A program made the position numbers and the translations under genes. Source: Clostridia bacterium (GTDB lineage: Bacteria; Bacillota; Clostridia; Oscillospirales; Acutalibacteraceae). From it: a DNA stretch of 64,000 bases. The notes beneath the pieces are model-generated. The model was given only the letters and a program-made list of their open reading frames with translations. It was not told the DNA's origin and ran no database searches. Within the stretch, counting starts at the first letter, position 1. The number at the start of each line of letters is the position of its first letter. Below, one piece after another: positions 507 to 56,305 of the stretch. The stretch covers positions 61,073 through 125,072 of the forward strand of contig JAFSYP010000028.1 of assembly GCA_017449935.1 (NCBI GenBank). The letters are read 5' to 3'.

Positions 507-3500
507 ATGAACAAAACGATCAAACGTACCCTGTGCGTACTGCTGAGCATGGCGTTGATGCTTTCTGCGTTCGGCGGATTGGGCTTCGGCGTGAGCGCCG
601 CTGTTTACGACAATTATTTTCTGTATTCGGTAGCCAATGGGGAGGTGACCATTACCGGCCACGACCATGCGCTTGGGGACGTCCTTGAAACGCGGGAATC
701 TCTGGTCATTCCGGCAGAGATCAACGGATATCCCGTGACATGCATCGGTGACCGCGCTTTCAGCAGCTGCATATGCTATTCGAGCGTGATCATCCCGAAC
801 AGTGTGAAAAGGATCGGCAATGGCGCTTTCTATCAAAACGCGATCCGTTCAGACGTTACGATCCCGGACGGCGTCCTGTCTATCGGTGCGGGGGCTTTCG
901 CCAAAAGCCCGACTCTCCCGCGTGTCACGATCCCGGACAGCGTAACGGATATCGGCGAGTACGTTTTTTCCGAATGCGAGAGCCTTACCGATGTGTCCAT
1001 CGGGGACGGCGTAACGAGCATTCCCGAGGAGGCTTTCAGCGATTGTACGAGCCTTGAAAGCGTATCGGTCGGCAGCGGCGTGACGAGCATCGGCACAGCG
1101 GCATTCGACAACTGCAAAAAACTTACAAACATCACGCTCCCGGACAATTTGACGAGCATTGGCGAACGCGCCTTCGACGTATGCGAGAGCCTTGCAAATT
1201 TCACGATCCCGGACAGTGTGACAAGCATTGGCAAAGACGCCTTTGCCGCATGCGACAGTCTTACGAGCATCGCGATCCCGGACGGCGTGACTGAGATTTT
1301 GGAAGGGACTTTCAAGTTGTGCGACAGCCTTTCCGCGGTTACGATCCCGAACAGTGTGACGAGCATCGGGATTGCTGCCTTTGCATGGTGCAGGAGCCTT
1401 GAAAGCATTACGATCCCGAACAGCGTGACAAGCGTTCGCGAACAGGCGTTTTTCGGATGCAGCGCTCTCGAAAGCGCCGTCATTCCGTACGGCATTACTG
1501 CAATAAAATATGATACATTCTATAAGTGCACAAATCTGAAAACCGTCCACATACCCTCTACCGTCACGGAAATCGGCCGGGACGCATTCGGTCTTTGCGG
1601 CAGTCTGGAATCCGTTTGCTCCGACAAAGAGGATTGTTACGCTAAGACCTTTGCGGACGCGCGCAATATCGCGTTCCGCGTTTGCGGGGGACATGACGCC
1701 GCGAGCGCGGCAGGCGGGCAGGTCAAGACTTTGGCAGTCGGCGAACGGTATTTGATCGGCGACGTCATTTACTTTGAAAATGTTACGACCTTCCCCCATG
1801 AATCGGAGACGTATGTGACTGTGCATTCTACCCAATGGCTGCGCGGCATGATAAATCTGTCGCGGGAGGATATGGTCGCGCTTCCCGAACCGGTATACCA
1901 TACGCCTCCTGTGCATCCGACGTCCGGCTATGAGAACGGAACATGGGTGTTCGATCCGGCTTTCGGCAATGCGGGAGGGGAGAGTATCGTTGATAAGTAT
2001 AAGATTTTTGTGCCGGTGCAAAGCATTACAAAGGTGCCCGTCGGCGTTAAGTGCGTCAGCGGAAACGGTTCCAACGAATCCCCCTATCGCTTTGAGGCGA
2101 TCTATTCCGCTGCCGATTCATGGACGTGGACGTTTTCCGCGAGCGGAAACACGATCACGGCGACCTGCAGCGGTCCGGACGCGATCGAACCGCAGACATT
2201 GACGCTGAACGACGGCGTCAGACAGTATGCGTACAATGAACCGCTGTCTCCCAGCGTCACGGCGTCCGATGGCTGGACTGCGGAAAACAACCTGCCGACG
2301 CCTTCGTTTACGTATTTCAGCTCTCAATACATGTATGACGGCGCCAATCAGGGGCTGCCGGGCGATTATACCGTGACCATGACAGTCGGCGGCGTGAGCG
2401 TGCAGGCAAACTATTCGATCACGGCAAGACAGGCGAGCGATATTGTCTTCACACCGCCCGCGCCGATCCGGAATCTGGTCTGTACCGGCGAAAGCATTAC
2501 GCTGTTCACACCCGGCAGCGTGTCCACGGGCGACTGCGAAATGTATTATAAGAGGTACTATCTCAGTTACGATCCAAACCAATATTACGATGACTACACG
2601 GAGACGGTGCGCCGTGATTTTGAGTCCGCCGGGGTTTTAGGGTTTTACGCCGGCGGTCAATATGACGGATATATCGGCGACGAGTTTAACAGATGGGAGT
2701 ACGGCGCCTCACCGCAGCTCAGTGAACAATTGTCAGGATATATCGCGGGATATTATGTGATCGGATACGCCGTCCGTCATGCATACGACGGCTACGAAAA
2801 CGCCTATGGGTATATTGTCGTCAAGGTCGATAAAGGCGTTCCGGCGCATACCGATCCGCCGGACGTGCTCGACGTGACCTACGGACAGCGTTTCGCGGAC
2901 GTCACCCTGCCCGAAGGGTGGAGATTTACCCGGAACCCATACGGAACGGTCGACAGGTCGGACACTTTCTACGAGAATATCCGCTTTGAAGTCCTCGACG
3001 AGTATGCGTCGCATATGTTCGCGGATATCGATCACGCCGTTCTGCTGCGTTCCGCCAAAAAGACGCTGACGATCACGGCCGATCCGATCGTCAAAACGGT
3101 CGGCGAGGTCGATCCCGAGTTGACCTACACGGTCGACGGTCTGGTCGCGGGCGACACGCTCACCGGCGCGCTTGCGCGTACAGGCGGCGAAGAGGCGGGG
3201 ACCTATGAAGTCACGCTCGGCACTCTGAGCGCCGGAAAAAACTACGACATTCAGTTCGTCGGCTCGACGTTCACGGTCAAGAAGCCGTCCGAGCCGCAGG
3301 ATATGCAGTCCGTGACGATCGACGCGCAGATCAGCGTCAACTTCCTGCTTGACCTCGACGCGCGCGACAACGTGCAGAGCGTGCGGATCGAATACATCGA
3401 CCCGGCGACGGATACCGTGCAGTCCGACGTGGAATATACCGACTTCAGCAATATGGAGAAGCAGAACGATCTGTATAAGATCCGCGCGAAGATCGCGCCC

Positions 3501-4121
3501 GCACAGCTCGGCAACACGGTACAGGCGACGGTATTGTACGGCGACGGCAAATCGGAAACGCTCGGCACCTCTGTCGCGCAGTACTGCAGCAATCTGCTCC
3601 AAAGCGACGTCGGGAGCGACGCAGTCCGGGCGCTCGCGTATGCGATGCTCGAATACGGTCAGGCCGCCAACGAGTACTTCGGGTACAACGACGCGCCGAT
3701 CGGAACGACCGCAAACGCCGAGCGCGACGTTGCGTACGTGAAGGATCTGCCGAGTACGTTAACTTTGAAAACGGATAAGATCACGGGCGCGGCGTTCGTG
3801 GCGCTGACAAAACCGGAGTTCCGCTTCTTCACCGAGGGCCTGACCGAGGCCGAGGCGGCCGGACTGAACGACAGGATCGCCGTCAGCGGAAATGCGCAGG
3901 CGCGGTTCGTCAAGAACGGCGACGCGATCATTCTGGAAGTGACCGGCGTCGAAGCGGCCGATATGGCCGAGAGCGTCACCATAACCGTCGACGGTGCGGA
4001 ATGGGTCACGTTTACCGGCAACGACTTTGCGCGCCTGTTGGCCAATTATGAACCGACTGCCGTGCTCGGCGCCGCGCTGTATAACTACGGCGCTGCTGCA
4101 GCTGCCTGTTTCAACGGATAA
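507..4121 (+). CDS. Secreted BspA-like leucine-rich repeat surface protein with MBG-like domain
   Basis: A 1204-residue exported protein, probably a cell-surface adhesin. The start at 507 is chosen because AAAAGGAG lies just upstream and a clear signal peptide follows (KR-rich start, hydrophobic core, cut near residue 32). Residues about 66-371 are tandem 23-residue LRR_5/BspA repeats of the form IPxSVTSIGxxAFxxCxSL. Middle residues about 400-850 look beta-rich. Residues about 850-928 resemble an MBG domain (ITADP...GKNYDIQF). The last 270 residues contain MLEYGQAANEYFGYN and a similar LYNYGAAAAACF, a pattern I associate with large clostridial surface proteins (recollection, not a search). 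No LPXTG, SLH or dockerin is visible, so how it is retained is unknown. BspA-type proteins elsewhere bind host matrix or other bacteria; the ligand here is unknown. Confidence 0.85.
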   Translation: MNKTIKRTLCVLLSMALMLSAFGGLGFGVSAAVYDNYFLYSVANGEVTITGHDHALGDVLETRESLVIPAEINGYPVTCIGDRAFSSCICYSSVIIPNSVKRIGNGAFYQNAIRSDVTIPDGVLSIGAGAFAKSPTLPRVTIPDSVTDIGEYVFSECESLTDVSIGDGVTSIPEEAFSDCTSLESVSVGSGVTSIGTAAFDNCKKLTNITLPDNLTSIGERAFDVCESLANFTIPDSVTSIGKDAFAACDSLTSIAIPDGVTEILEGTFKLCDSLSAVTIPNSVTSIGIAAFAWCRSLESITIPNSVTSVREQAFFGCSALESAVIPYGITAIKYDTFYKCTNLKTVHIPSTVTEIGRDAFGLCGSLESVCSDKEDCYAKTFADARNIAFRVCGGHDAASAAGGQVKTLAVGERYLIGDVIYFENVTTFPHESETYVTVHSTQWLRGMINLSREDMVALPEPVYHTPPVHPTSGYENGTWVFDPAFGNAGGESIVDKYKIFVPVQSITKVPVGVKCVSGNGSNESPYRFEAIYSAADSWTWTFSASGNTITATCSGPDAIEPQTLTLNDGVRQYAYNEPLSPSVTASDGWTAENNLPTPSFTYFSSQYMYDGANQGLPGDYTVTMTVGGVSVQANYSITARQASDIVFTPPAPIRNLVCTGESITLFTPGSVSTGDCEMYYKRYYLSYDPNQYYDDYTETVRRDFESAGVLGFYAGGQYDGYIGDEFNRWEYGASPQLSEQLSGYIAGYYVIGYAVRHAYDGYENAYGYIVVKVDKGVPAHTDPPDVLDVTYGQRFADVTLPEGWRFTRNPYGTVDRSDTFYENIRFEVLDEYASHMFADIDHAVLLRSAKKTLTITADPIVKTVGEVDPELTYTVDGLVAGDTLTGALARTGGEEAGTYEVTLGTLSAGKNYDIQFVGSTFTVKKPSEPQDMQSVTIDAQISVNFLLDLDARDNVQSVRIEYIDPATDTVQSDVEYTDFSNMEKQNDLYKIRAKIAPAQLGNTVQATVLYGDGKSETLGTSVAQYCSNLLQSDVGSDAVRALAYAMLEYGQAANEYFGYNDAPIGTTANAERDVAYVKDLPSTLTLKTDKITGAAFVALTKPEFRFFTEGLTEAEAAGLNDRIAVSGNAQARFVKNGDAIILEVTGVEAADMAESVTITVDGAEWVTFTGNDFARLLANYEPTAVLGAALYNYGAAAAACFNG
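702..1619 (+). repeat. Tandem 69-bp LRR_5 (BspA) coding repeats
   Basis: About thirteen in-frame copies of a 69-base unit encoding 23 residues. Recurrent DNA words such as acgatcccg and gtgacgagcat recur at this spacing. They are coding repeats, and copy number could vary by recombination. Confidence 0.85.
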
Positions 4122-4133
4122 GGAGGAAAAAAG

Positions 4134-4280
4134 ATGAAAAAAGCATATGAGAGGCCCGAGCTTTATGAAGAACGGTTCGACGTCGAGGATATGATCGTCG
4201 TGTCGTCCGTCGGCGGCCAAAGCCAACCGCTTGATACTATCAATACAGCGTTTCAAAGTCCCGTCCTTCCGGTGAATTAA
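4134..4280 (+). CDS. Small 48-residue protein of unknown function downstream of the surface protein
   Basis: An ATG preceded by AGGAGGAAAAAAG opens a 48-residue frame starting MKKAYERPELYEERF and ending QSPVLPVN. It lies 12 bases after the surface-protein stop, so the two are almost certainly co-transcribed. The pattern MKKxYxxPxLxxxxF resembles short orphan proteins often seen in gut Clostridia (recollection, not a search). The protein is acidic in its N-terminal half, has no cysteine and no membrane segment, and has Ser-Gly and Gln-rich residues in the middle. It could be a peptide precursor, a small chaperone for the exported neighbour, or an uncharacterised regulator. No processing enzyme is next to it. 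The perfect ribosome site is the main evidence that it is translated. Confidence 0.7.
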   Translation: MKKAYERPELYEERFDVEDMIVVSSVGGQSQPLDTINTAFQSPVLPVN

Positions 4281-4302
4281 AAACAAACAAAGTATCATTC
4301 CC

Positions 4303-4335
4303 GCGCGGAGAAGTGTCCGATACGTTTCTCCGCGC
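4303..4335 (+). terminator. Perfect 10-bp hairpin, probable terminator
   Basis: GCGCGGAGAA (4303-4312) pairs with TTCTCCGCGC (4326-4335). The T-tract is poor, so termination may be weak or factor-assisted. Confidence 0.55.
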
Positions 4336-4390
4336 TTGCTGTATCTGCGTCCGGCGATACAAAATAATGTATTTTTGTGTTTAATAAGAC

Positions 4391-4419
4391 TATACATTTC
4401 GCTTCGTATGTGTTATAAT
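4391..4419 (+). promoter_or_regulatory. Promoter of the metallophosphoesterase operon
   Basis: -10 TATAAT (4414-4419) with the extended element TG two bases upstream; weak -35 TATACA (4391-4396), spacer 17. Confidence 0.6.
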
Positions 4420-4448
4420 GATTGAAAATGAGAAAGGTGGCGTAGTGT

Positions 4449-5687
4449 TTGTCTGAACGAATACAGGATTTTCGGCCGACTCTGCGTTTTGCGGTCTGCT
4501 CCGATATACATATGCAGTCGATTTCCGATCTGCGTGCGGACCGGCTGCGCCGCTGGATCCGCCTTGCTTACCGGATCGCGGACACCGATGCGGCATATCC
4601 GAAGCTGGACGCGCTGCTGTTTGCCGGCGATCTGACTGTTGAAGGCACGTTCGAGTCGATCTCGGATTTTTGGCGCGTGGTGCAGAGCGAACTGCGCGGG
4701 GATACGGCTGTGATGTCGGTGCTCGCGAAGAATCATGACAACTGGAGCGAGGGCAGAGCGTGCGTCAAAACGGGCCTGTCTTTCTATCGCAGCGTGACGG
4801 GACTGCCGACAGATTACCGGACAGTGATCGGCGGGTGCTCGTTCATCGGTCTTTCGACCTGTGCCGAGACCGGCGTGTACTATGCGGAGCCTCAGCGCGA
4901 GTGGCTGCGCACGCAGCTTTCCGACGCGCTGTGCGAAACGCCCGGAAAACCGATATTCGTCATGCATCACGAGCATGTGTCGAATACGGTCTACGGCAGT
5001 TATCCGCAGGACGGCTGGGGCATGGACTTTTTCCGGGACATTTTCGACGAGTTCCCGCAGGTCGTGCATCTTTCCGGACACTCGCATTATCCGATCAACG
5101 ATCCCCGGTCAGTCTGGCAGGGCACCTTTACTGCCGTGGGATGCGGCGCGCTCAGCTATGCGGAGCTGACGGTGGACGGCCAAAACAAGATCCACCCGCC
5201 CGGCCATGAAATGATCGCGCAGGGCTGGATCGCCGAACTGGACGCGGACAATCGGCTGCGCCTGCGCGGGTACGACGCGTTGACGGATTCGCTGCTCTGT
5301 GAATACCTTCTGGACCTTTCCGACGTTCCGCGCAGCTTTTCCCTCACACCGGAGGAACAGCGCGCACGCGCCGCGGCGCCGGAGTTTCCGCAGAACGCGG
5401 AGCTTTCGGTCGAGCGCAGCGGCGGGCAGATCGCGCTGACTGTCCCCGAAGCGGTCTGTCCGGACGGTTCGCCCGTCTTTCTGTACCGCGTGTCCTTGTC
5501 GGACCGAAACGGCGCGGAACTTCTGCGGACGGTTCTGTACAACGAATACTGGCGCAAGACTGACGCGGCTTCCGCCGTTTCCTTCCCGGCGCCGCCGGGC
5601 GTATATGCGGTTTACGTTCGGGCGGAGAACGCCTTCGGGATGCAGTCGGCTTTACTGAGTAAAATATTGAAAGAAGGAGATACATGA
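4449..5687 (+). CDS. Calcineurin-like metallophosphoesterase with C-terminal beta-sandwich
   Basis: A 412-residue protein starting at TTG, with AGAAAGGTGG at 4430-4439 and no in-frame ATG near. The dimetal-site motifs are present in order: SDIH (18-21), GD (60-61), NHDN (95-98), HH in VMHHEH, and GHSH near residue 211. The family hydrolyses phosphomonoesters or diesters with two metals. The C-terminal 130 residues (VPEAVCPDGSPVFLYRVSL... VYAVYVRAENAFGM) look like an Fn3-type domain. There is no signal peptide, so it should act in the cytoplasm. It is first in a five-gene operon with a sugar-type symporter and a GH127-like enzyme, which suggests work on phosphorylated or carbohydrate-derived substrates. 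The substrate is unknown. Confidence 0.85.
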   Translation: MSERIQDFRPTLRFAVCSDIHMQSISDLRADRLRRWIRLAYRIADTDAAYPKLDALLFAGDLTVEGTFESISDFWRVVQSELRGDTAVMSVLAKNHDNWSEGRACVKTGLSFYRSVTGLPTDYRTVIGGCSFIGLSTCAETGVYYAEPQREWLRTQLSDALCETPGKPIFVMHHEHVSNTVYGSYPQDGWGMDFFRDIFDEFPQVVHLSGHSHYPINDPRSVWQGTFTAVGCGALSYAELTVDGQNKIHPPGHEMIAQGWIAELDADNRLRLRGYDALTDSLLCEYLLDLSDVPRSFSLTPEEQRARAAAPEFPQNAELSVERSGGQIALTVPEAVCPDGSPVFLYRVSLSDRNGAELLRTVLYNEYWRKTDAASAVSFPAPPGVYAVYVRAENAFGMQSALLSKILKEGDT

Positions 5688-49375: not shown

Positions 49376-49411
49376 AAAAAACGGGGCTGTCCGTTTTCAG
49401 GGCAGTCCCGT
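49376..49411 (-). terminator. Terminator at the 3' end of the capsid cassette
   Basis: ACGGGGCTGTCC (49381-49392) pairs with GGGCAGTCCCGT (49400-49411); on the minus strand TTTTTTC follows. It separates the head cassette from trmB. Confidence 0.85.
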
Positions 49412-49418
49412 AAAAACG

Positions 49419-50258
49419 TTATCTGGACGTCACGATCCCATAGCGGCATCCCGCCATGTTCAGCTTCGGCATTCCGCCGGAGTAATCGCTCTGATCGGAG
49501 TACACGCGCAGCGTTCTGCCGTCCAGCGTGATCCCGTGCTGGCAGCCGTATCTGCCGGCAAAGGCGGTGTAGTATTCGACCCGCTGCGCGCCGGCGTTAT
49601 ACAGCGCGGGCGGGTATTCAAAAGCGAAAACCTGGACCCATGCCGGCTCGAAATCGAGCGTGATGGTGCGCGAATTCGCTCCGGTGCCCACATAGGAAGA
49701 CACGATCAGCGGATGGTTCCACTGCGTCTTTTCCGCAGCGCTGGCATGCAGCTCGGCGTCACGGATATGCGTCCCGCACAGCAGCTCTTTATCAAAAAAA
49801 GACTGAAAGTTCATATTGGAGGAAACTGCGGGACAAAAATCCGCCGAGATCTGCACGTATCCTTTGAGCACCAGCGCATCCGTGTCTCTGTCCTCCGTGA
49901 CATTTTCGCAGCCGGATTCCTCGATGTGCAGATTCGAGGCAAAATTCAGCGCGTCGGTCACGTCGGAGAAAACCTCGTGGCACGTATGGCCGCCGAGAGA
50001 GAACGGGACATGGATCGCCAGTTGGATGCGCATGGCGGCGGTACGGCAGTATTCCTGCCGTACCAGCACGCCGTTTCCGTCGTCGCGGAATTGATCGGTC
50101 AGTGTGACGGACTGAAGTCCGACCGCCACGATGACCTTGCGCAGCGGGACGGCTTTTTTGATGGCGGGATATTCCGTCAGGAACGTGATGTGGGACAGAT
50201 CCGGCTGTGCGGACAGCCACCGGACGATCTCGCCCGGCAGGGCGCTGACAGAGCTCAT
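49419..50258 (-). CDS. Tail-completion-like protein fused to a fibre-like C-terminal domain
   Basis: 279 residues from ATG 50258, overlapping the previous stop (ATGA). Residues about 1-165 (LPGEIVRWLSAQPDLS ... IVAVGLQSVTLTDQF ... IQLAIHVPFSLGGHTCHEVFSDV) have the size and alternating pattern of phage tail-terminator/completion proteins. Residues about 170-279 (SYVGTGANSRTITLDFEPAWVQVFAFE, ending GCRYGIVTSR) resemble a beta domain found at the ends of clostridial phage tail proteins. The fusion is unusual and it is the last gene: no tail tube, tape measure or sheath follows. Assignments are by pattern only; a stand-alone adhesive cap is one possible role. Confidence 0.5.
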   Translation of the reverse strand: MSSVSALPGEIVRWLSAQPDLSHITFLTEYPAIKKAVPLRKVIVAVGLQSVTLTDQFRDDGNGVLVRQEYCRTAAMRIQLAIHVPFSLGGHTCHEVFSDVTDALNFASNLHIEESGCENVTEDRDTDALVLKGYVQISADFCPAVSSNMNFQSFFDKELLCGTHIRDAELHASAAEKTQWNHPLIVSSYVGTGANSRTITLDFEPAWVQVFAFEYPPALYNAGAQRVEYYTAFAGRYGCQHGITLDGRTLRVYSDQSDYSGGMPKLNMAGCRYGIVTSR

Positions 50259-50602
50259 GCGGGTTCCTCGCTTTCTTCCACGACGGTGCGCACGATCGCC
50301 CAGATGTAGTACGGGTCCTTGCCGCAATATACCTTTTCCGCGCGGTCGATCCGGTAGCTTTCGTCTCCGATCCGAAGCTGCACGTTGTCGCCGAGCGCTG
50401 TCAGGTCATGCTCCGGCGGGCCGATATACAGGTAATGTCCCTGCGCATTGTGACCGATCTGGGTGTTCACACCGTAGAGATACATTTTGTTTTTGTACCG
50501 AAGCGGCTGCAAAAAGCAGCAAAAGGGCGTGCTCTGCCAGCCGTCCGGCTGCCGCAGCGTCGCCTTGCGGCCGAAGCGGTCCATGAATTGTTTGATCTGC
50601 AT
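50255..50602 (-). CDS. Phage head-closure/head-tail joining protein
   Basis: 115 residues from ATG 50602 (AAAGGAG seven bases upstream). The pattern HYLYIGPPEHDL ... VQLRIGDESYRIDRAEKVYCGKDPYYIWAIVR is typical of small proteins between connector and tail genes in clostridial prophages. In tailed phages such proteins seal the head after packaging. Third from last gene position fits a head-completion role. Confidence 0.65.
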   Translation of the reverse strand: MQIKQFMDRFGRKATLRQPDGWQSTPFCCFLQPLRYKNKMYLYGVNTQIGHNAQGHYLYIGPPEHDLTALGDNVQLRIGDESYRIDRAEKVYCGKDPYYIWAIVRTVVEESEEPA

Positions 50603-50614
50603 AAACACGCTCCT

Positions 50615-50974
50615 TTACACGCTGCGGAAGAGGAAGCGGTCGTCGCGCAGCAGAGGCAGCGCGGGCAGCAGCAGGCTTTCGCGCACCTGAAGCGCGCGGC
50701 TTTGTGCGGCTTTGTCCGAGCGGTGGACAACGACGTCGCCCGCCTTGAAGTAGCTCATATCCGCATCCTCGGCGTTTTTTCGCAGCATGGCATAGTAGTA
50801 GGCGACGCCTGCCGCCGCACGGATGATGCGCGGATCGTCGGCGTCGGCAGGATCTTTCAGCTGCGGCAGCAGCTCGTCCGCCGCGGCGCGGCAGAGACGG
50901 AGCATTTCGCCGCGCGTGTCATCCGTAATGTGCAGCAGCGTATGCAGACTTTCCAGTACGTTCCATTCGTTCAT
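50615..50974 (-). CDS. Phage head-tail connector protein
   Basis: 119 residues, mostly helical: LESLHTLLHITDD, then IRAAAGVAYYYAMLRKNA and YFKAGDVVVH. It follows the major capsid gene by 12 bases, the usual position of gp6-like connectors that extend the portal ring. Sequence is divergent from model phages, so the call leans on position and pattern. Confidence 0.65.
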   Translation of the reverse strand: MNEWNVLESLHTLLHITDDTRGEMLRLCRAAADELLPQLKDPADADDPRIIRAAAGVAYYYAMLRKNAEDADMSYFKAGDVVVHRSDKAAQSRALQVRESLLLPALPLLRDDRFLFRSV

Positions 50975-50986
50975 CCCGCGCCTCCG

Positions 50987-51997
50987 TCAGATGTGCAGCA
51001 GACGCGAAGCGTCGCGGAAGATCTTGGAGAAGCCGGCCGTCGAGGTGATGGCGGCGCGTTCGAGCTGGCGGTCAATGAGCTTGTCGTACTCGGTCGTCAC
51101 TTCGCCCGCCTTGACCATCTCCAGCGCGCACGTATTGTCGAGGCCGAGGATCTCGTCGTCCGCGACCGCGCCGGAGCGCAGCAGCTCCGCGCCGATGGGC
51201 GTGATCATCTTGCCCGTGCTCTGGAAATTGAAGCCGGCTTTCGCGTCCTTGAATTCGGAGAGCTTGAGCAGCTTCGCCAGTACCGCGGGGGAGGCGATCA
51301 GCGTGCGCAGACTGTACGGGGAAAACAGGTTCCAGAAATCCACCAGATCGCCGTAGGTCAGCGTGTGGTTCGTCGTGTCCGCCACGTTCGAGGACGACGC
51401 GGCGTTGTTGTTGCCGTCGCCGTTTTTCAGCACGGTCACCGCGTCCGTGAACTGCGTGCGCGCGATGTAGGCGCCGATCTGCTTGAGCGTGATGGTGAAC
51501 AGATCGAGCTTCTGGAAGCGGATGGCTTCATATGAAGCGGTCAGCATCCTGCCGCGCTTGTGCAGACGGACAAGGTTCTCCTGCGTGCGCACGCGCGTTT
51601 CGGGGATGAACGCGCCTTCCGCGACCGGCGAGAGCGCTTTTTCCTCCTCGGTGGGGACGGATTCGATGGAGCGGTAGTCCAGCGAGTCGATCAGCGTGGT
51701 GGCCGCGACGATAGACGACAGCAGATCCGCTTCCTCCATGCCCTGCCGCACGGCGCGGGAGACGTATTCGGGGAACAGTGCGGCGGAGTCGGTCGTGGCG
51801 AAGAACTTCTCGACCGGACTGCTGCCGGGGCCGCTGATGCGGATGTCGAAGCGTTTGAGCTGGCGCTGGTAGGCGTCAAGGCCTTCGAGCGCGGTGCCCT
51901 TGTACTGCTCTGACGGATCGAGCGCCTCCAGCGTTCCGGTGAAGGAACGTCCGGTGGTATACAGACCCTTTTCCAGTTTCAACGTATCAAATGCCAT
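50987..51997 (-). CDS. Major capsid protein (HK97 fold)
   Basis: 336 residues, the size of HK97-type capsid proteins. An N-terminal arm is followed by VSRAVRQGMEEADLLSSIV, a spine-helix-rich centre with RMLTASYEAIRFQ and ITLKQIGAYIARTQFTDAV, and the A-domain-like region LRTLIASPAVLAKLL and GKMITPIGAEL. It carries no scaffold domain of its own; that role belongs to the upstream protein. The frame is intact. Start ATG follows AAAGAGGAGG. Confidence 0.8.
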   Translation of the reverse strand: MAFDTLKLEKGLYTTGRSFTGTLEALDPSEQYKGTALEGLDAYQRQLKRFDIRISGPGSSPVEKFFATTDSAALFPEYVSRAVRQGMEEADLLSSIVAATTLIDSLDYRSIESVPTEEEKALSPVAEGAFIPETRVRTQENLVRLHKRGRMLTASYEAIRFQKLDLFTITLKQIGAYIARTQFTDAVTVLKNGDGNNNAASSSNVADTTNHTLTYGDLVDFWNLFSPYSLRTLIASPAVLAKLLKLSEFKDAKAGFNFQSTGKMITPIGAELLRSGAVADDEILGLDNTCALEMVKAGEVTTEYDKLIDRQLERAAITSTAGFSKIFRDASRLLHI

Positions 51998-52012
51998 AGT
52001 TGTTCCTCCTCT

Positions 52013-52354
52013 TTACAGAATACAGGTGAGCGTGCCGCGCACCGTGTCCACGGCGAGGACGCACACGCTCGTGCCGCTTTCGGCAGACTTGACGCCGCCG
52101 TCTCCGTCGCTGACCAGTACGGCCGGACCGACGGACGGTGCCGTGCCGGAATAGGGCAGCGTGACGGCGCCGCGCATCTGTACCGCGCAGAGCGCGCCGC
52201 TGCATGTCAGCACGACGCCGACGAACGCATCGCCGTTTTCCGCGGCGGATGCGGTGAAATTATCCGTCAGCTTGACGGTCGTGCCGCTGGGGATCGTATC
52301 GGCCGCCTGCATAGTCAGCGCGGCCTGCAGGAAACCGTTTGCGGAAAGATTCAT
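52013..52354 (-). CDS. Capsid decoration-like protein
   Basis: 113 residues, small and beta-rich, Gly/Thr/Ala-rich (TIPSGTTVKLTDNFTAS, GDAFVGVVLTCSG, VTLPYSGTAPSVGPAVLV), placed between protease/scaffold and major capsid genes. That position and composition match head-decoration or stabilising proteins, which bind the capsid exterior after expansion. No cysteine pattern or membrane helix is apparent. Confidence 0.6.
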   Translation of the reverse strand: MNLSANGFLQAALTMQAADTIPSGTTVKLTDNFTASAAENGDAFVGVVLTCSGALCAVQMRGAVTLPYSGTAPSVGPAVLVSDGDGGVKSAESGTSVCVLAVDTVRGTLTCIL

Positions 52355-52366
52355 GGAATGACCTCC

Positions 52367-53338
52367 TTAAATTATGAATGCGCTGTCCTCTTCGGACGGC
52401 GAATCGGGGAGACGGAGCTGCGGCTGCAGCGGGATACGGTGATTTGCGAGCGTCGTGAAGCCCTTGCGCAGCGCCTGAAGTTCGTCCGCCGTCAGCTTTT
52501 CGCAGACGCTTTTGAGCGCGTCGCCGTCAGCGTCCGGCATCGCGGCGAGCGCCAGACGCATCGTATCCTGTATGAGCTGTACGTGGTACGCCTTGCCCAG
52601 CGACGCCTCGGACTCCAGCTCGCAGAGCTGCGCCTGCAGCGCGGTGAGCTGCTGCGGCGAAAGCGTGAGAGAATCCGTGGACTTACGCACGGTTGAAAGA
52701 ATGTCCTGCATGGGTTCCTCCTTATTTCGGAATGATTTGACGACGCCAGCTGCGCGCTGCGCCGGGACCGCGACGAACGACCACTCGTATGCGTCCGTCG
52801 GCGCGGAGAGGATGTGGTGGCAGACCTTGCCGTCCACGACGTCGCCCTTGCGGTGCGCGCAGGGCGCGTGCAGCACGTCCGCGCCGCAGACCGAGCAGCG
52901 GCGTACAGCCGAGCTGCAGTGGACGCTGACCTCTTTTTTGATCCCGGCGTCGATCTCCGTGCGCAGAGACGCGTTCTCCGGCGTGAGCGGCATATACGCC
53001 GCGGCGAATACGTATGTGTACGGTTCGCCTGTTTCGGTGCGGCGCGTCGGGTCGGTGCGGCATTCAGTCTTATAGATGCGCGCGGTCTGGTCGCGGCTTT
53101 GCAGACTGTGATCGAACAGTCCGGTCGTGCCGACGAACATCCCCGCGATCGTTTCAAGCGCGTCGATCCCGAACCGTTCCAGGTCGCGGTCGATCTCGTT
53201 GTCGCACAGCACCATTGAAAAAGTATACAGCTCGTCGGCCGTCATCGGCCTGCGGGTGTACCTGTGGATGCATTTGAGATCCTCGTCGGTCAGCGTCTGC
53301 TGTGTGTTTTCCAGAGCAGACAAATAACTTTTGATCAT
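52367..53338 (-). CDS. Prohead protease/scaffold-like protein with zinc-binding motif
   Basis: 323 residues. The N-terminal half ends with TDAYEWSFVAVPAQRAAGVVKS, a block I associate with protease-scaffold proteins of clostridial prophages. A cysteine/histidine cluster (CSVCG, then CAHRKG and CHH, about residues 147-180) could hold zinc. The C-terminal 110 residues are helical and acidic, fitting a scaffold that is removed after assembly. Catalytic residues of a His-Ser protease cannot be assigned with certainty. Overlaps the portal gene by four bases. Confidence 0.6.
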   Translation of the reverse strand: MIKSYLSALENTQQTLTDEDLKCIHRYTRRPMTADELYTFSMVLCDNEIDRDLERFGIDALETIAGMFVGTTGLFDHSLQSRDQTARIYKTECRTDPTRRTETGEPYTYVFAAAYMPLTPENASLRTEIDAGIKKEVSVHCSSAVRRCSVCGADVLHAPCAHRKGDVVDGKVCHHILSAPTDAYEWSFVAVPAQRAAGVVKSFRNKEEPMQDILSTVRKSTDSLTLSPQQLTALQAQLCELESEASLGKAYHVQLIQDTMRLALAAMPDADGDALKSVCEKLTADELQALRKGFTTLANHRIPLQPQLRLPDSPSEEDSAFII

Positions 53339-54477
53339 GTGTCGGCCTCCTTTTCAAGGCTTTGCAGCAGCTTTTTCGCCTGCGCGTCATACAGGCGTGC
53401 GCGGCTGAGCTCCACCTCATCCTGCAGCGTGACGTCGTTCCAGACGATCTGCGGCTCCTCGGCGGATCCGGACAGACGCAGGAACGTGCGCAGGATCTTC
53501 TGCAGCACGGGCGTCAGCAGTGCGCGGTAGGCCTCCAGCTCGCTCGTGAGCAGATCGGCCTGCTGCGCGGACATGCGCTCCGTGGACGACCAGGACAGGC
53601 CGAGCAGGAAGGGTGGCAGGCCGGTTTTGGCGAGGATCTGTTCGAGCATTTGACGCACGGGGACCTCGCAGTCGGGGATCGGGCAGTCCGCGCCGATCGC
53701 GCGGATAGACACGTCGCCCACCGTCACGAAATCCTTCGCGTGCGCGCCGCTCTGCATCGCTTCGCTCCATTCCTTTGCGACCTGCATGGCGCGTTCCTTC
53801 GCCCAGGCGCGGTCGATCGCGTCGTTCTGCGGTTTGTACGTCACGGCGAAGCGCACGTTGCCCAGACGATCCCAGTTCTCGCCTGTCGCGGTGAAGATCT
53901 TTAAAAGGATCGAGGTCACGAACGGCAGCCCGTGCAGCAGCGACGTGCCGTACAGCGCGCCGGGCGCGGGACGCAGCGCGGACAGAAGCAGCAGATCCGG
54001 ATAGGGGACAGGCGTCTTGTGCGGATCGCCGGCGAGGACCTCGGCGGAGAAGCCGTCGGCTGCGCGTCGCAGTTCGATGCACCGCAGCGGCGCGTTGTAC
54101 AGTCCCATGACCTGTCCGTTCTGCACGACGATCTCGCCGATCGCCGTACCGTAGGTCAGCAGCTGATCGAGGTAGGCGCTCAGAAACGCCGGTACGCCGC
54201 AGCCGCAGCCGCCCAGCGGAACGTGCTGGATAAAGTCCTGCAAAGCGCGATCGGCGTCGCCGTCCTTGCAGTGCGCCTCGAAACCGAGCGTCAGACGCAC
54301 CAGCTTGCCGACGGCCGCGTCGATGATCGGCACGGCTGTGCGCAGCGTGTCGTACAGCGCGAAGCTCGCCGCCGACGCGTACCATTGCGGCAGCGTGAAC
54401 GGATCGCCCGCGAAGGGATGGCGCGGCGCCGTCTGGACTGCTGCCGCAGGCGCGGCTCTTTTCTTTTTAAAGGGCAT
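53335..54477 (-). CDS. Phage portal protein
   Basis: 380 residues from ATG 54477 (AAGGAGGT just upstream); an ATG at 54492 overlapping the terL stop would add five residues. Portal features: TVPIIDAAVGKLVRLTLGF-like stretch, FLSAYLDQLLTYGTAIGEIVV, DLLLLSALRPAPGALYGTSLL, LGLSWSSTERMSAQQADLL. Portals form the dodecameric entry for DNA and dock TerL. Shorter than the typical 420-500 residues, mainly at the C-terminus, but open throughout. Confidence 0.75.
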   Translation of the reverse strand: MPFKKKRAAPAAAVQTAPRHPFAGDPFTLPQWYASAASFALYDTLRTAVPIIDAAVGKLVRLTLGFEAHCKDGDADRALQDFIQHVPLGGCGCGVPAFLSAYLDQLLTYGTAIGEIVVQNGQVMGLYNAPLRCIELRRAADGFSAEVLAGDPHKTPVPYPDLLLLSALRPAPGALYGTSLLHGLPFVTSILLKIFTATGENWDRLGNVRFAVTYKPQNDAIDRAWAKERAMQVAKEWSEAMQSGAHAKDFVTVGDVSIRAIGADCPIPDCEVPVRQMLEQILAKTGLPPFLLGLSWSSTERMSAQQADLLTSELEAYRALLTPVLQKILRTFLRLSGSAEEPQIVWNDVTLQDEVELSRARLYDAQAKKLLQSLEKEADT

Positions 54478-54488
54478 AAAAACCTCCT

Positions 54489-55748
54489 TCATCGCTCTAC
54501 CGCCACGGAAAAGAAACCGCCGTCCGCTTTTTGCATGACAGTGGTCACGAAGTAACGCAGATCGTCCATGGCGTGGTCATTTTGTTTTTTCGGCACGTCA
54601 CGCACGCTGTTTTCGTCCCAGCGGTAGAGTGAGAATTCCCGCAGGGTATCCGTACAGGACGGATCGATGCGGATCTTTCCGTCCTTAAGCGCACAGGACA
54701 CCTTGCGGATCCCGTCCAAAACGTCGTTGTCGGCCGGCAGCACACGGAACGCGCCGTGTCGGCGGATGCATTCCATGAAGCTGGCGGCGGACGGGTCGAC
54801 AACGACCGCTTCGATCGGCAGATCTCCCGCGAGAGCCGTCAGTCCTTCGTAGTGCTCCTCATCGGTACGCTGTACGCCGGTCCTGCGCGAGTCGTGGTAA
54901 TACTCGCGCATACGCGTCCAGACGCCGTCGGTCCCCAGTCCCCACAGTCCGAAGGAGGACGGGTTGACCGTACCGTAGTCGCAGGAGATAAAGCAGCGGC
55001 AGGGCGTTCCCTGCAGGGAGGCGACGTGCAGATCCTTGCGGAACATCGGATAGACCAGCCCCGATACGTTTACCCATCTGCCGCGGATGAACCGTTCGTA
55101 GAACGCGCCGGAGTACAGGTTTTCGTACCTTCGGCGCACATCCGCAGACAGTGACGGGTTGTCCTGCATCGTAAAGTGCAGATACAGGCAGTTTTTTTGT
55201 TCGGCCTTCTGCACCCATTCACGGTAGAACCAGTGGTACGGGTTTTCCGGGTTGCAGTTGAACCAGAGCTTCGCACCCTGCACGGAGCAGCGCGCCATCG
55301 CCTGTTCCACGAAGGAGCGCGGCATCAGCGCCACTTCGTCCATCAGGACGCCGCCGAGCGTCATCCCCTGGATCAGTGCCGCGGAGCCTTCGTCCTTGCC
55401 GCCGAAAAGATAGAAGCGGTGGGTAACGGAGCCGCGACGGATCTCCACGAGATTGCGCGAGACTTTTTCGTCGCAGTCGAAGCCCAGCTCCCGCAGCAGC
55501 GGCAGCATCGGTGTGAGAATGTTGCGCCGCAGAGAAGCGATGGTCTTGCCGCACAGGGCGAACGATGCATCCGGAAAACGGTAGAACGCCCAGAGGACGA
55601 AGGACAGGGTCATGCAGACCGTTTTGCCGGATCGCACCGCGCCGTCGCACAGGATCGCGTCGCGTGTGCGGTGCGGACTGTTGTCGCACCACCACGTCAG
55701 CACAGTCAGCTGCTTTGGGGAGAATCGTCCGAAATCGGATAACGGAAT
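54489..55748 (-). CDS. terL: Terminase large subunit (PBSX type), probable ATT start
   Basis: 419 residues if started at ATT 55748. ATPase: Walker A GAVRSGKT (36-43) and Walker B LMDE with Glu138. Nuclease: Asp257 in SCDYG, Asp318 in VVDPSA and Asp395/396 in NDHAMDDL. The packaging motor therefore looks functional. The frame is open from a TGA directly upstream and contains the conserved SPKQLTVLTWW; the first ATG/GTG start (GTG 55703) would cut off SPKQL. GGAGG lies nine bases before the ATT, an initiation codon known from infC. The region overlaps terS by 43 bases. Confidence 0.82.
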   Translation of the reverse strand: MPLSDFGRFSPKQLTVLTWWCDNSPHRTRDAILCDGAVRSGKTVCMTLSFVLWAFYRFPDASFALCGKTIASLRRNILTPMLPLLRELGFDCDEKVSRNLVEIRRGSVTHRFYLFGGKDEGSAALIQGMTLGGVLMDEVALMPRSFVEQAMARCSVQGAKLWFNCNPENPYHWFYREWVQKAEQKNCLYLHFTMQDNPSLSADVRRRYENLYSGAFYERFIRGRWVNVSGLVYPMFRKDLHVASLQGTPCRCFISCDYGTVNPSSFGLWGLGTDGVWTRMREYYHDSRRTGVQRTDEEHYEGLTALAGDLPIEAVVVDPSAASFMECIRRHGAFRVLPADNDVLDGIRKVSCALKDGKIRIDPSCTDTLREFSLYRWDENSVRDVPKKQNDHAMDDLRYFVTTVMQKADGGFFSVAVER

Positions 55749-56227
55749 GCGTCGTCACCTCCCGTGTTCCCGACCGGCTGCGGGACGCTGTTCATGAGCG
55801 CGCGGTACAGCGGCAGAGCGGGGTCCGCGCGGTCTGCCCCGGAAAGCTGCTGCAGGCGCTCGAGCGCGCGCAGCCGGTCGAAGAACTTGATTTCCAGCGC
55901 GCCGTCCTTGGGCTTCTTGATCTCCGACACGTTAAACAGATCCAAGGCGTCCAGTTCGTCCGGCGGCACGCTGCCGAAGAGAAGCCGCAGAGCGTCGGCG
56001 CCGCTTCCGAACGCCAGTTTGCGGTAACCTGCCAGCAACTCGGCCGGCTCAGCCCGGCATACGCGGGTGTTTTCCGCGACGGCCTTCTGGATATCCTGCC
56101 GCTGCAGCAGCCGCACAGCCGTCTGCTGCGGGTCGGAGTATCCGGCTTTTGCAGCAGCAGCTTTGCCGTTTCTGTCCTGCGCATAGTACAGACAGAAGAG
56201 CATTTCCTTACGGTTCGGTTTTTTCAT
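55706..56227 (-). CDS. terS: Terminase small subunit
   Basis: 173 residues of the Terminase_2 type: N-terminal helix-turn-helix (KEMLFCLYYAQDRNGKAAAAKAGYSD, with RLLQRQDIQKAVAE) for pac/cos recognition, then an oligomerisation region (RLRALERLQQL). AAAGGAG is ten bases upstream of ATG. It starts 40 bases after a terminator with no clear promoter between, so its transcription source is unclear. Confidence 0.78.
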   Translation of the reverse strand: MKKPNRKEMLFCLYYAQDRNGKAAAAKAGYSDPQQTAVRLLQRQDIQKAVAENTRVCRAEPAELLAGYRKLAFGSGADALRLLFGSVPPDELDALDLFNVSEIKKPKDGALEIKFFDRLRALERLQQLSGADRADPALPLYRALMNSVPQPVGNTGGDDAFRYPISDDSPQSS

Positions 56228-56266
56228 CGGCGGTCAACTCCTTTCGTTCCCTTCACTTCCGGGCAT

Positions 56267-56305
56267 AAAAAGACCCCCGGTTGTCCTAAACAGAGCAACC
56301 GGGGG
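56267..56305 (-). terminator. Terminator upstream of the capsid cassette
   Basis: CCCCCGGTTG (56274-56283) pairs with CAACCGGGGG (56296-56305); on the minus strand it ends in TCTTTTT. It ends the DUF4474 gene transcript. Confidence 0.88.

Follow-up and report, generated by a model that had tools for sequence, protein, structure and literature searches.

The cassette at nt 49419–56227 of the window, that is, the 64,000-nt stretch of DNA from a Clostridia bacterium analysed here, is probably a domesticated phage element, inherited largely vertically and found across the order, which in this lineage has lost tail and baseplate and kept head assembly and packaging under selection. Its best reading is an element similar to gene transfer agents (GTAs) that has been reduced to a DNA-packaging head, which has no tail and bears a possibly cell-binding neck ring.

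The cassette contained nine consecutive minus-strand genes, all with open frames, flanked by a DUF4474 gene and a trmB-like gene. Reading of the frames, together with Pfam and PHROG matches, bore out the earlier note, which had described nine unbroken frames between these two neighbours. The genes provided a full packaging motor and head genes, while tail, lysis and integration genes were absent. terS (nt 55706–56227) encoded a terminase small subunit of 173 aa (PF03592, E 2.2e-13), including an N-terminal helix-turn-helix-like part, and terL (nt 54489–55703) encoded a terminase large subunit of 404 aa (PF03237, E 4e-15; phrog_2) with intact ATPase and nuclease motifs. The Walker A/B residues of TerL, previously noted as retained along with the acidic nuclease residues, were invariant in the aligned loci (K27 in 73 of 73, D122 and E123 in 75 of 75), as were the nuclease acids D242, D303, D376 and D380 (76 of 76 each). 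The next genes encoded a portal protein of 380–385 aa (nt 53335–54492; phrog_30703, E 3e-120), a prohead protease with a helical, scaffold-like C-terminal part (323 aa; nt 52367–53338; phrog_16951, E 3e-97), a head decoration or cement protein (113 aa; nt 52013–52354; phrog_4588, E 2e-24, with PF09956 below cut-off), and the major capsid protein, MCP (336 aa; nt 50987–51997; phrog_3922, E 8e-96; PF25209, E 2e-16). The AlphaFold2 model of the protease/scaffold protein had a pLDDT of 85; its best viral match in a fold search was a prohead serine protease (E 3e-19), and a search against the PDB gave no match under E 0.001. Connector 1 (119 aa; nt 50615–50974) and connector 2 (115 aa; nt 50255–50602) matched no Pfam or PHROG family and were named adaptor-like and stopper-like by position only; their own profiles had matches in relatives, with the order kept. 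The genes scanned in about 7 kb upstream and 4 kb downstream of the cassette were ordinary chromosomal genes, and no integration or replication gene was found in the cassette (Pfam and PHROG) or among the scanned window neighbours (Pfam).

The ninth gene (nt 49419–50258), with its start near nt 50258, encoded a terminator-fibre fusion protein of 279 aa, identified by profile matches, AlphaFold2 and structure matches. A tail terminator occupied residues of about 3–141, followed by a linker (143–173) and a fibre-like beta domain (184–279). In a 302-residue reading of the gene, residues of about 1–160 matched the tail-terminator gene of tailed relatives and residues of about 180–302 matched their last, fibre-like gene; in those relatives, about 5 kb separates the genes for the two halves. 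In the AlphaFold2 model (mean pLDDT 76, pTM 0.47), the first half resembled a terminator, the linker had low confidence and the beta domain was modelled confidently. Structures matching the first half came from a wide range of phages, tail terminators as well as neck proteins, and included a native GTA virion chain. The gene, earlier named "tail-completion-like", is thus corrected to a fusion of a tail terminator and a fibre-like domain.

The ninth-gene protein was matched in 107 of 300 sampled family genomes, and the fusion, defined as one match spanning both halves strongly (E at most 1e-63), was found in 30 of the 300, belonging to 10 genera. Loci were read for 29 of these 30 and for a further fusion from another genus (G003). 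All eight core genes were present in 26 of the 30 fusion loci read; three of the other four were cut by contig ends, and in the fourth (G227) terS was missed by the gene caller and recovered by other searches. Frames were intact in every fusion locus unaffected by contig ends. The decoration gene was not found in 10 of the 30 loci, one of these 10 being cut by a contig end. At locus L309, two extra small frames lay between the capsid gene and connector 1.

Comparison of element forms in 40 plus 40 further loci showed a series of longer elements with tails, of which the cassette is the reduced end. The longest form (12.0–13.3 kb in 13 loci measured) encoded a sheath (PF04984, PF17482) and a contractile-type tail, together with a tube-like protein, small proteins, a LysM protein, a hub, a small protein in the position of a spike, a gp25-like protein, baseplate J, a Gp48-like protein and, in some loci, a fibre-like protein. 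It was carried by Flavonifractor plautii ATCC 29863 (L242:151–13219). A middle form (9.3–11.5 kb in 18 loci measured) had no sheath, the window's form measured 6.4–7.5 kb (27 loci), and other head-only and hub-only forms also occurred. In one longer element (L175), a holin adjoined the last gene. The longer relatives thus encode a tail, whereas the fusion loci had no tail genes beyond the terminator and the fibre-like domain.

The absence of tail, lysis and integration genes had been noted for the window's cassette, with the suggestion that the remaining functions might lie elsewhere in the genome. The absence was upheld, but the suggestion gained no support for two baseplate genes. In a profile search, baseplate J and hub of the element type were found in 0 of 30 fusion genomes, including that of the window, whereas all 10 tailed controls gave strong matches; 7 of these controls contributed rows to the baseplate J profile and 6 to the hub profile. 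Weak baseplate-J-like matches occurred in 3 of the 30 fusion genomes, all of genus g128. The PF05105 holin was absent from 27 of 30 fusion genomes, that of the window included, and present in 5 of 8 others. The PF04984 sheath was found in none of the seven genus genomes searched, again including the window's genome, which is 87% complete.

All 11 genomes of the genus had the capsid protein; absence from close relatives, which the earlier note had named as a refutation, was therefore not seen. At wider ranges, it was found in 177 of 300 sampled family genomes (80 of 135 genera), in 71 of 394 genomes of the order, representing several families, and in 6 of 291 genomes of the class. Two of the 177 family genomes had two MCP matches and the others one. 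No MCP match was found in 123 of the 300 family genomes, including 79 of the 229 most complete. A search limited to two short patterns yielded 109 named loci, of which 80 were kept; these were mostly from gut and rumen Clostridia. In the loci read, close homologues were not parts of complete prophages, which had been the other possibility raised; two distant ones (L167, L419) lay in prophage-like regions, the distant genomes concerned being G587 of the order and G922, one of the six in the class.

In an element tree built from TerL, portal, capsid and protease (79 rows), 29 fusions formed one clade (SH-aLRT 97), while the G003 fusion and other head-only loci were placed elsewhere; head-only states require several separate changes on this tree. 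The element tree shared 36 of 66 splits with that of RpoB, compared with 0.2 on average and at most 2 across 200 shuffles, and the distances of the two were correlated (Mantel r 0.70; 0 of 999 permutations as high). This comparison covered the 69 genomes with usable rows, the window's RpoB being partial; of the rest, G285 was left out, and the others gave no RpoB match or lay outside the search. RpoB alone scattered some fusion hosts with weak support, and its tree neither recovered nor rejected the fusion hosts as a single clade (AU p 0.72). An MgtE-like gene, checked with Pfam in one of nine genomes, adjoined terS in these nine, tailed and tail-less, being two genes away in one case; the locus is thus in part the same. 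Neighbour genes were common to some genera only and differed elsewhere. Inheritance of the element is largely vertical.

The cassette is under purifying selection, as dN/dS lies far below 1. Across seven fusion-genome pairs, this ratio was 0.05–0.20 for the capsid gene and at most 0.18 for TerL, and the highest value of any gene was 0.34 where dS was computable; these values are rough because dS was high or not computable in many pairs. Three tailed pairs had similar or higher dN/dS, up to 0.67 (connector), and in one other head-only pair dS was mostly saturated. Relaxed selection, which the earlier note had also named as a refutation, was not seen in these values. Presence in all 11 genus genomes, near-single copy number, host-like phylogeny and purifying selection together support a domesticated, GTA-like element, as had been proposed.

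A hairpin followed by a T run was located at each end of the cassette (segment energies −13.4 and −25.8 kcal/mol), the downstream one, which is terminator-like, at nt 49376–49411 on the minus strand. The terminators previously assigned to both ends were thus recovered as hairpins, but a consensus terminator scan listed neither of them and gave no excess of sites (9 versus a shuffle mean of 9.3). The upstream hairpin contains a palindrome, for which some relatives keep a fixed distance to a second motif, and it may therefore exceed a terminator role. In the window, this candidate control site (nt 56249–56299, minus strand) comprises the palindrome at nt 56299–56280, 23 nt, and then GTGAAGGG at nt 56256–56249; palindrome and spacing are kept, and the TAT-like letters that precede the motif in relatives are missing. 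Of 75 genome loci, 20 had the arrangement of palindrome, 23 nt and TGA-containing motif upstream of terS, as had 15 of a further 100 loci, counted without correction for kinship. The same pattern was found at 49 of 1472 other genes, where spacings were flat, in contrast to the 23-nt peak upstream of terS. It was seen in families f1 and f26, and one f14 locus had 22 nt. Both a promoter with an operator and a leader hairpin are possible.

The profile match of the window TerS begins at position 2. The N-terminal part was matched in 26 of 27 fusion loci, the window's included, and in all four sheath-type loci of the window's family; the match started at position 40 or later, missing this part, in all six sheath-type f14 loci and, within the window's family, in 11 of the 19 loci of baseplate type. 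As TerS keeps a DNA-binding-like N-terminal part, packaging may not be random, and the tail-less form could load chosen DNA through it.

Judged from its genes, the cassette is likely to package DNA. By the proposed mechanism, a small head assembled on the portal by the protease/scaffold and capsid proteins would be filled with DNA by TerS and TerL and closed at the neck by the two connectors. A tail terminator normally caps the tail tube; here it would end the particle, its fibre-like domains forming a ring with a possible role in binding cells. We infer that particles form with host DNA inside, that cells are bound by the ring and that other cells receive the DNA. A stronger version, in which the neck ring itself is the cell-binding device of a minimal, tail-less capsid vehicle for DNA delivery, derived from a contractile phage without tube, sheath or baseplate and perhaps loading chosen DNA, is possible but doubtful. 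Retention of this tail-less set by a gut bacterium and many of its relatives suggests that the hosts use the cassette, perhaps to make shells filled with DNA that take genes from cell to cell.

Such a particle might also serve a purpose other than transfer, for example to store or remove DNA or, when lysis releases it, to act as a decoy or to kill. The lack of a tail and of a known delivery route speaks for this, as does the absence of the PF05105 holin from 27 of 30 fusion genomes, but the conserved terminase nuclease and the retained fibre-like domain would fit export and binding better, and we regard it as unlikely. A slowly decaying remnant, whose tails went first and whose head genes are on the way out, would agree with the several separate changes behind head-only states and with the lack of an MCP match in 123 of 300 family genomes. 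Against it stand the intact frames of all fusion loci uncut by contig ends, the invariant catalytic residues of TerL, the low dN/dS, the spread of the fusion across 10 genera and the MCP of all 11 genus genomes, which make decay quite improbable.

Capsid-forming phage-inducible chromosomal islands encode heads and packaging functions and no tails; they possess genes for integration and replication and spread by horizontal transfer. That the cassette is a satellite of this kind, forming its own capsids and borrowing the tails of a helper phage, is very improbable. Such satellites do carry genes for head and packaging but none for a tail, and TerS of the cassette retains its DNA-binding-like part. 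However, the integrase and replication module of a satellite was found neither in the cassette nor among the window neighbours scanned with Pfam, descent of the element is host-like, and the fusion of terminator and beta domain might crowd the face on which a tail would dock. In the flanks of relatives (74 proteins), no integrase was among the 25 listed of 47 PHROG-matched proteins. The cassette differs from the islands in showing no sign of integration or replication genes, in itself or in the scanned window neighbours, or of horizontal movement, and the satellite suggested by the earlier note found no support.

As a reduced GTA-like element, the cassette shares with GTAs a phage-derived structural cluster that is inherited with the host chromosome and, in the fusion loci and window neighbours, has no replication or integration genes; the tail structure that GTAs encode is missing from the fusion loci and present in the longer relatives. 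These relatives, with sheath, LysM hub, gp25-like, baseplate J and Gp48-like proteins, probably resemble the PBSX-type defective myophage of Bacillus, whereas none of these tail and baseplate genes is in the cassette of the window's lineage. RcGTA, one of the alphaproteobacterial GTAs, has a tail, unlike the present cassette. The nearest published system, compared by architecture and description, is FpGTA of Faecalibacterium, presumably a member of the same bacterial order as the cassette host.

For FpGTA, 40-nm heads with about 9 kb of DNA and no visible tails are described (Borodovich et al. 2026, PMC12946183), together with a head operon, in some strains a second operon that encodes baseplate, fibre and lysis functions, and a TerS with no obvious DNA-binding domain. 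Its authors searched their own scaffolds and 16 reference genomes from three genera for homologues, and present it as the first such element in the human gut microbiome and among very few outside Alphaproteobacteria (PMC12946183). The likeness lies in a head operon that encodes TerS, TerL, portal, scaffold and capsid, in the lack of reported replication genes, and in particles without visible tails, the present cassette being tail-less by its gene content. The cassette differs in its terminator-fibre fusion and in a genome without element-type baseplate J or hub. As far as these sources describe it, TerS of several GTAs, not all, has no specific DNA-binding domain (PMC11841831, PMC12946183); that of both FpGTA and RcGTA is so described, whereas the fusion TerS keeps its N-terminal part. 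Kinship of the cassette with FpGTA is plausible from their architecture. An element that looks like FpGTA occurs in several families of the order and, within the window's family, in 177 of the 300 genomes sampled. It is graded from a contractile-type tail to a head only, a series that amounts to a natural experiment in how much of a phage must be kept by its host. Since the cultured F. plautii ATCC 29863 carries the full version, a direct test of the movement of DNA by such heads is feasible.

A site composed of a palindrome, exactly 23 nt and then a TGA-containing motif recurred upstream of terS in relatives, the copy in the window being located at nt 56249–56299. The inner stem letters of the palindrome varied among the loci, and a search of the window against Rfam gave no match. 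One DUF4474 gene was present in the window; two consecutive DUF4474 genes were located upstream of terS in a genome of the same genus (locus L112, nt 2586–5221). As judged by profile matches, members of the tail-less clade, together with some of the tailed loci, have retained the DNA-binding-like N-terminal part of TerS; this part was unmatched in many tailed relatives, such as loci L117, L120, L122, L128, and L175.

Between loci L305 and L306 (genomes G253 and G063, respectively), the identity shared by the major capsid proteins was 59%, versus 78% for TerL and 73% for the portal protein, a pattern suggestive of an exchange of the capsid gene. A second capsid homologue of 309 aa, unaccompanied by other element genes, was observed at locus L179 in genome G217, which also possesses a full element.

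A head-only element was contained in a scaffold labelled as a human faecal "bacteriophage" (L265, MT835508), where it adjoined an apparent ribosomal protein operon, as judged from gene sizes. Loci L162-L166 and L168, belonging to another family, possessed a distinct short form in which the head genes and connector 1 are accompanied by small genes and by a hub-like protein (about 312 aa). This short form is a candidate relative of FpGTA, the gene transfer agent of Faecalibacterium.
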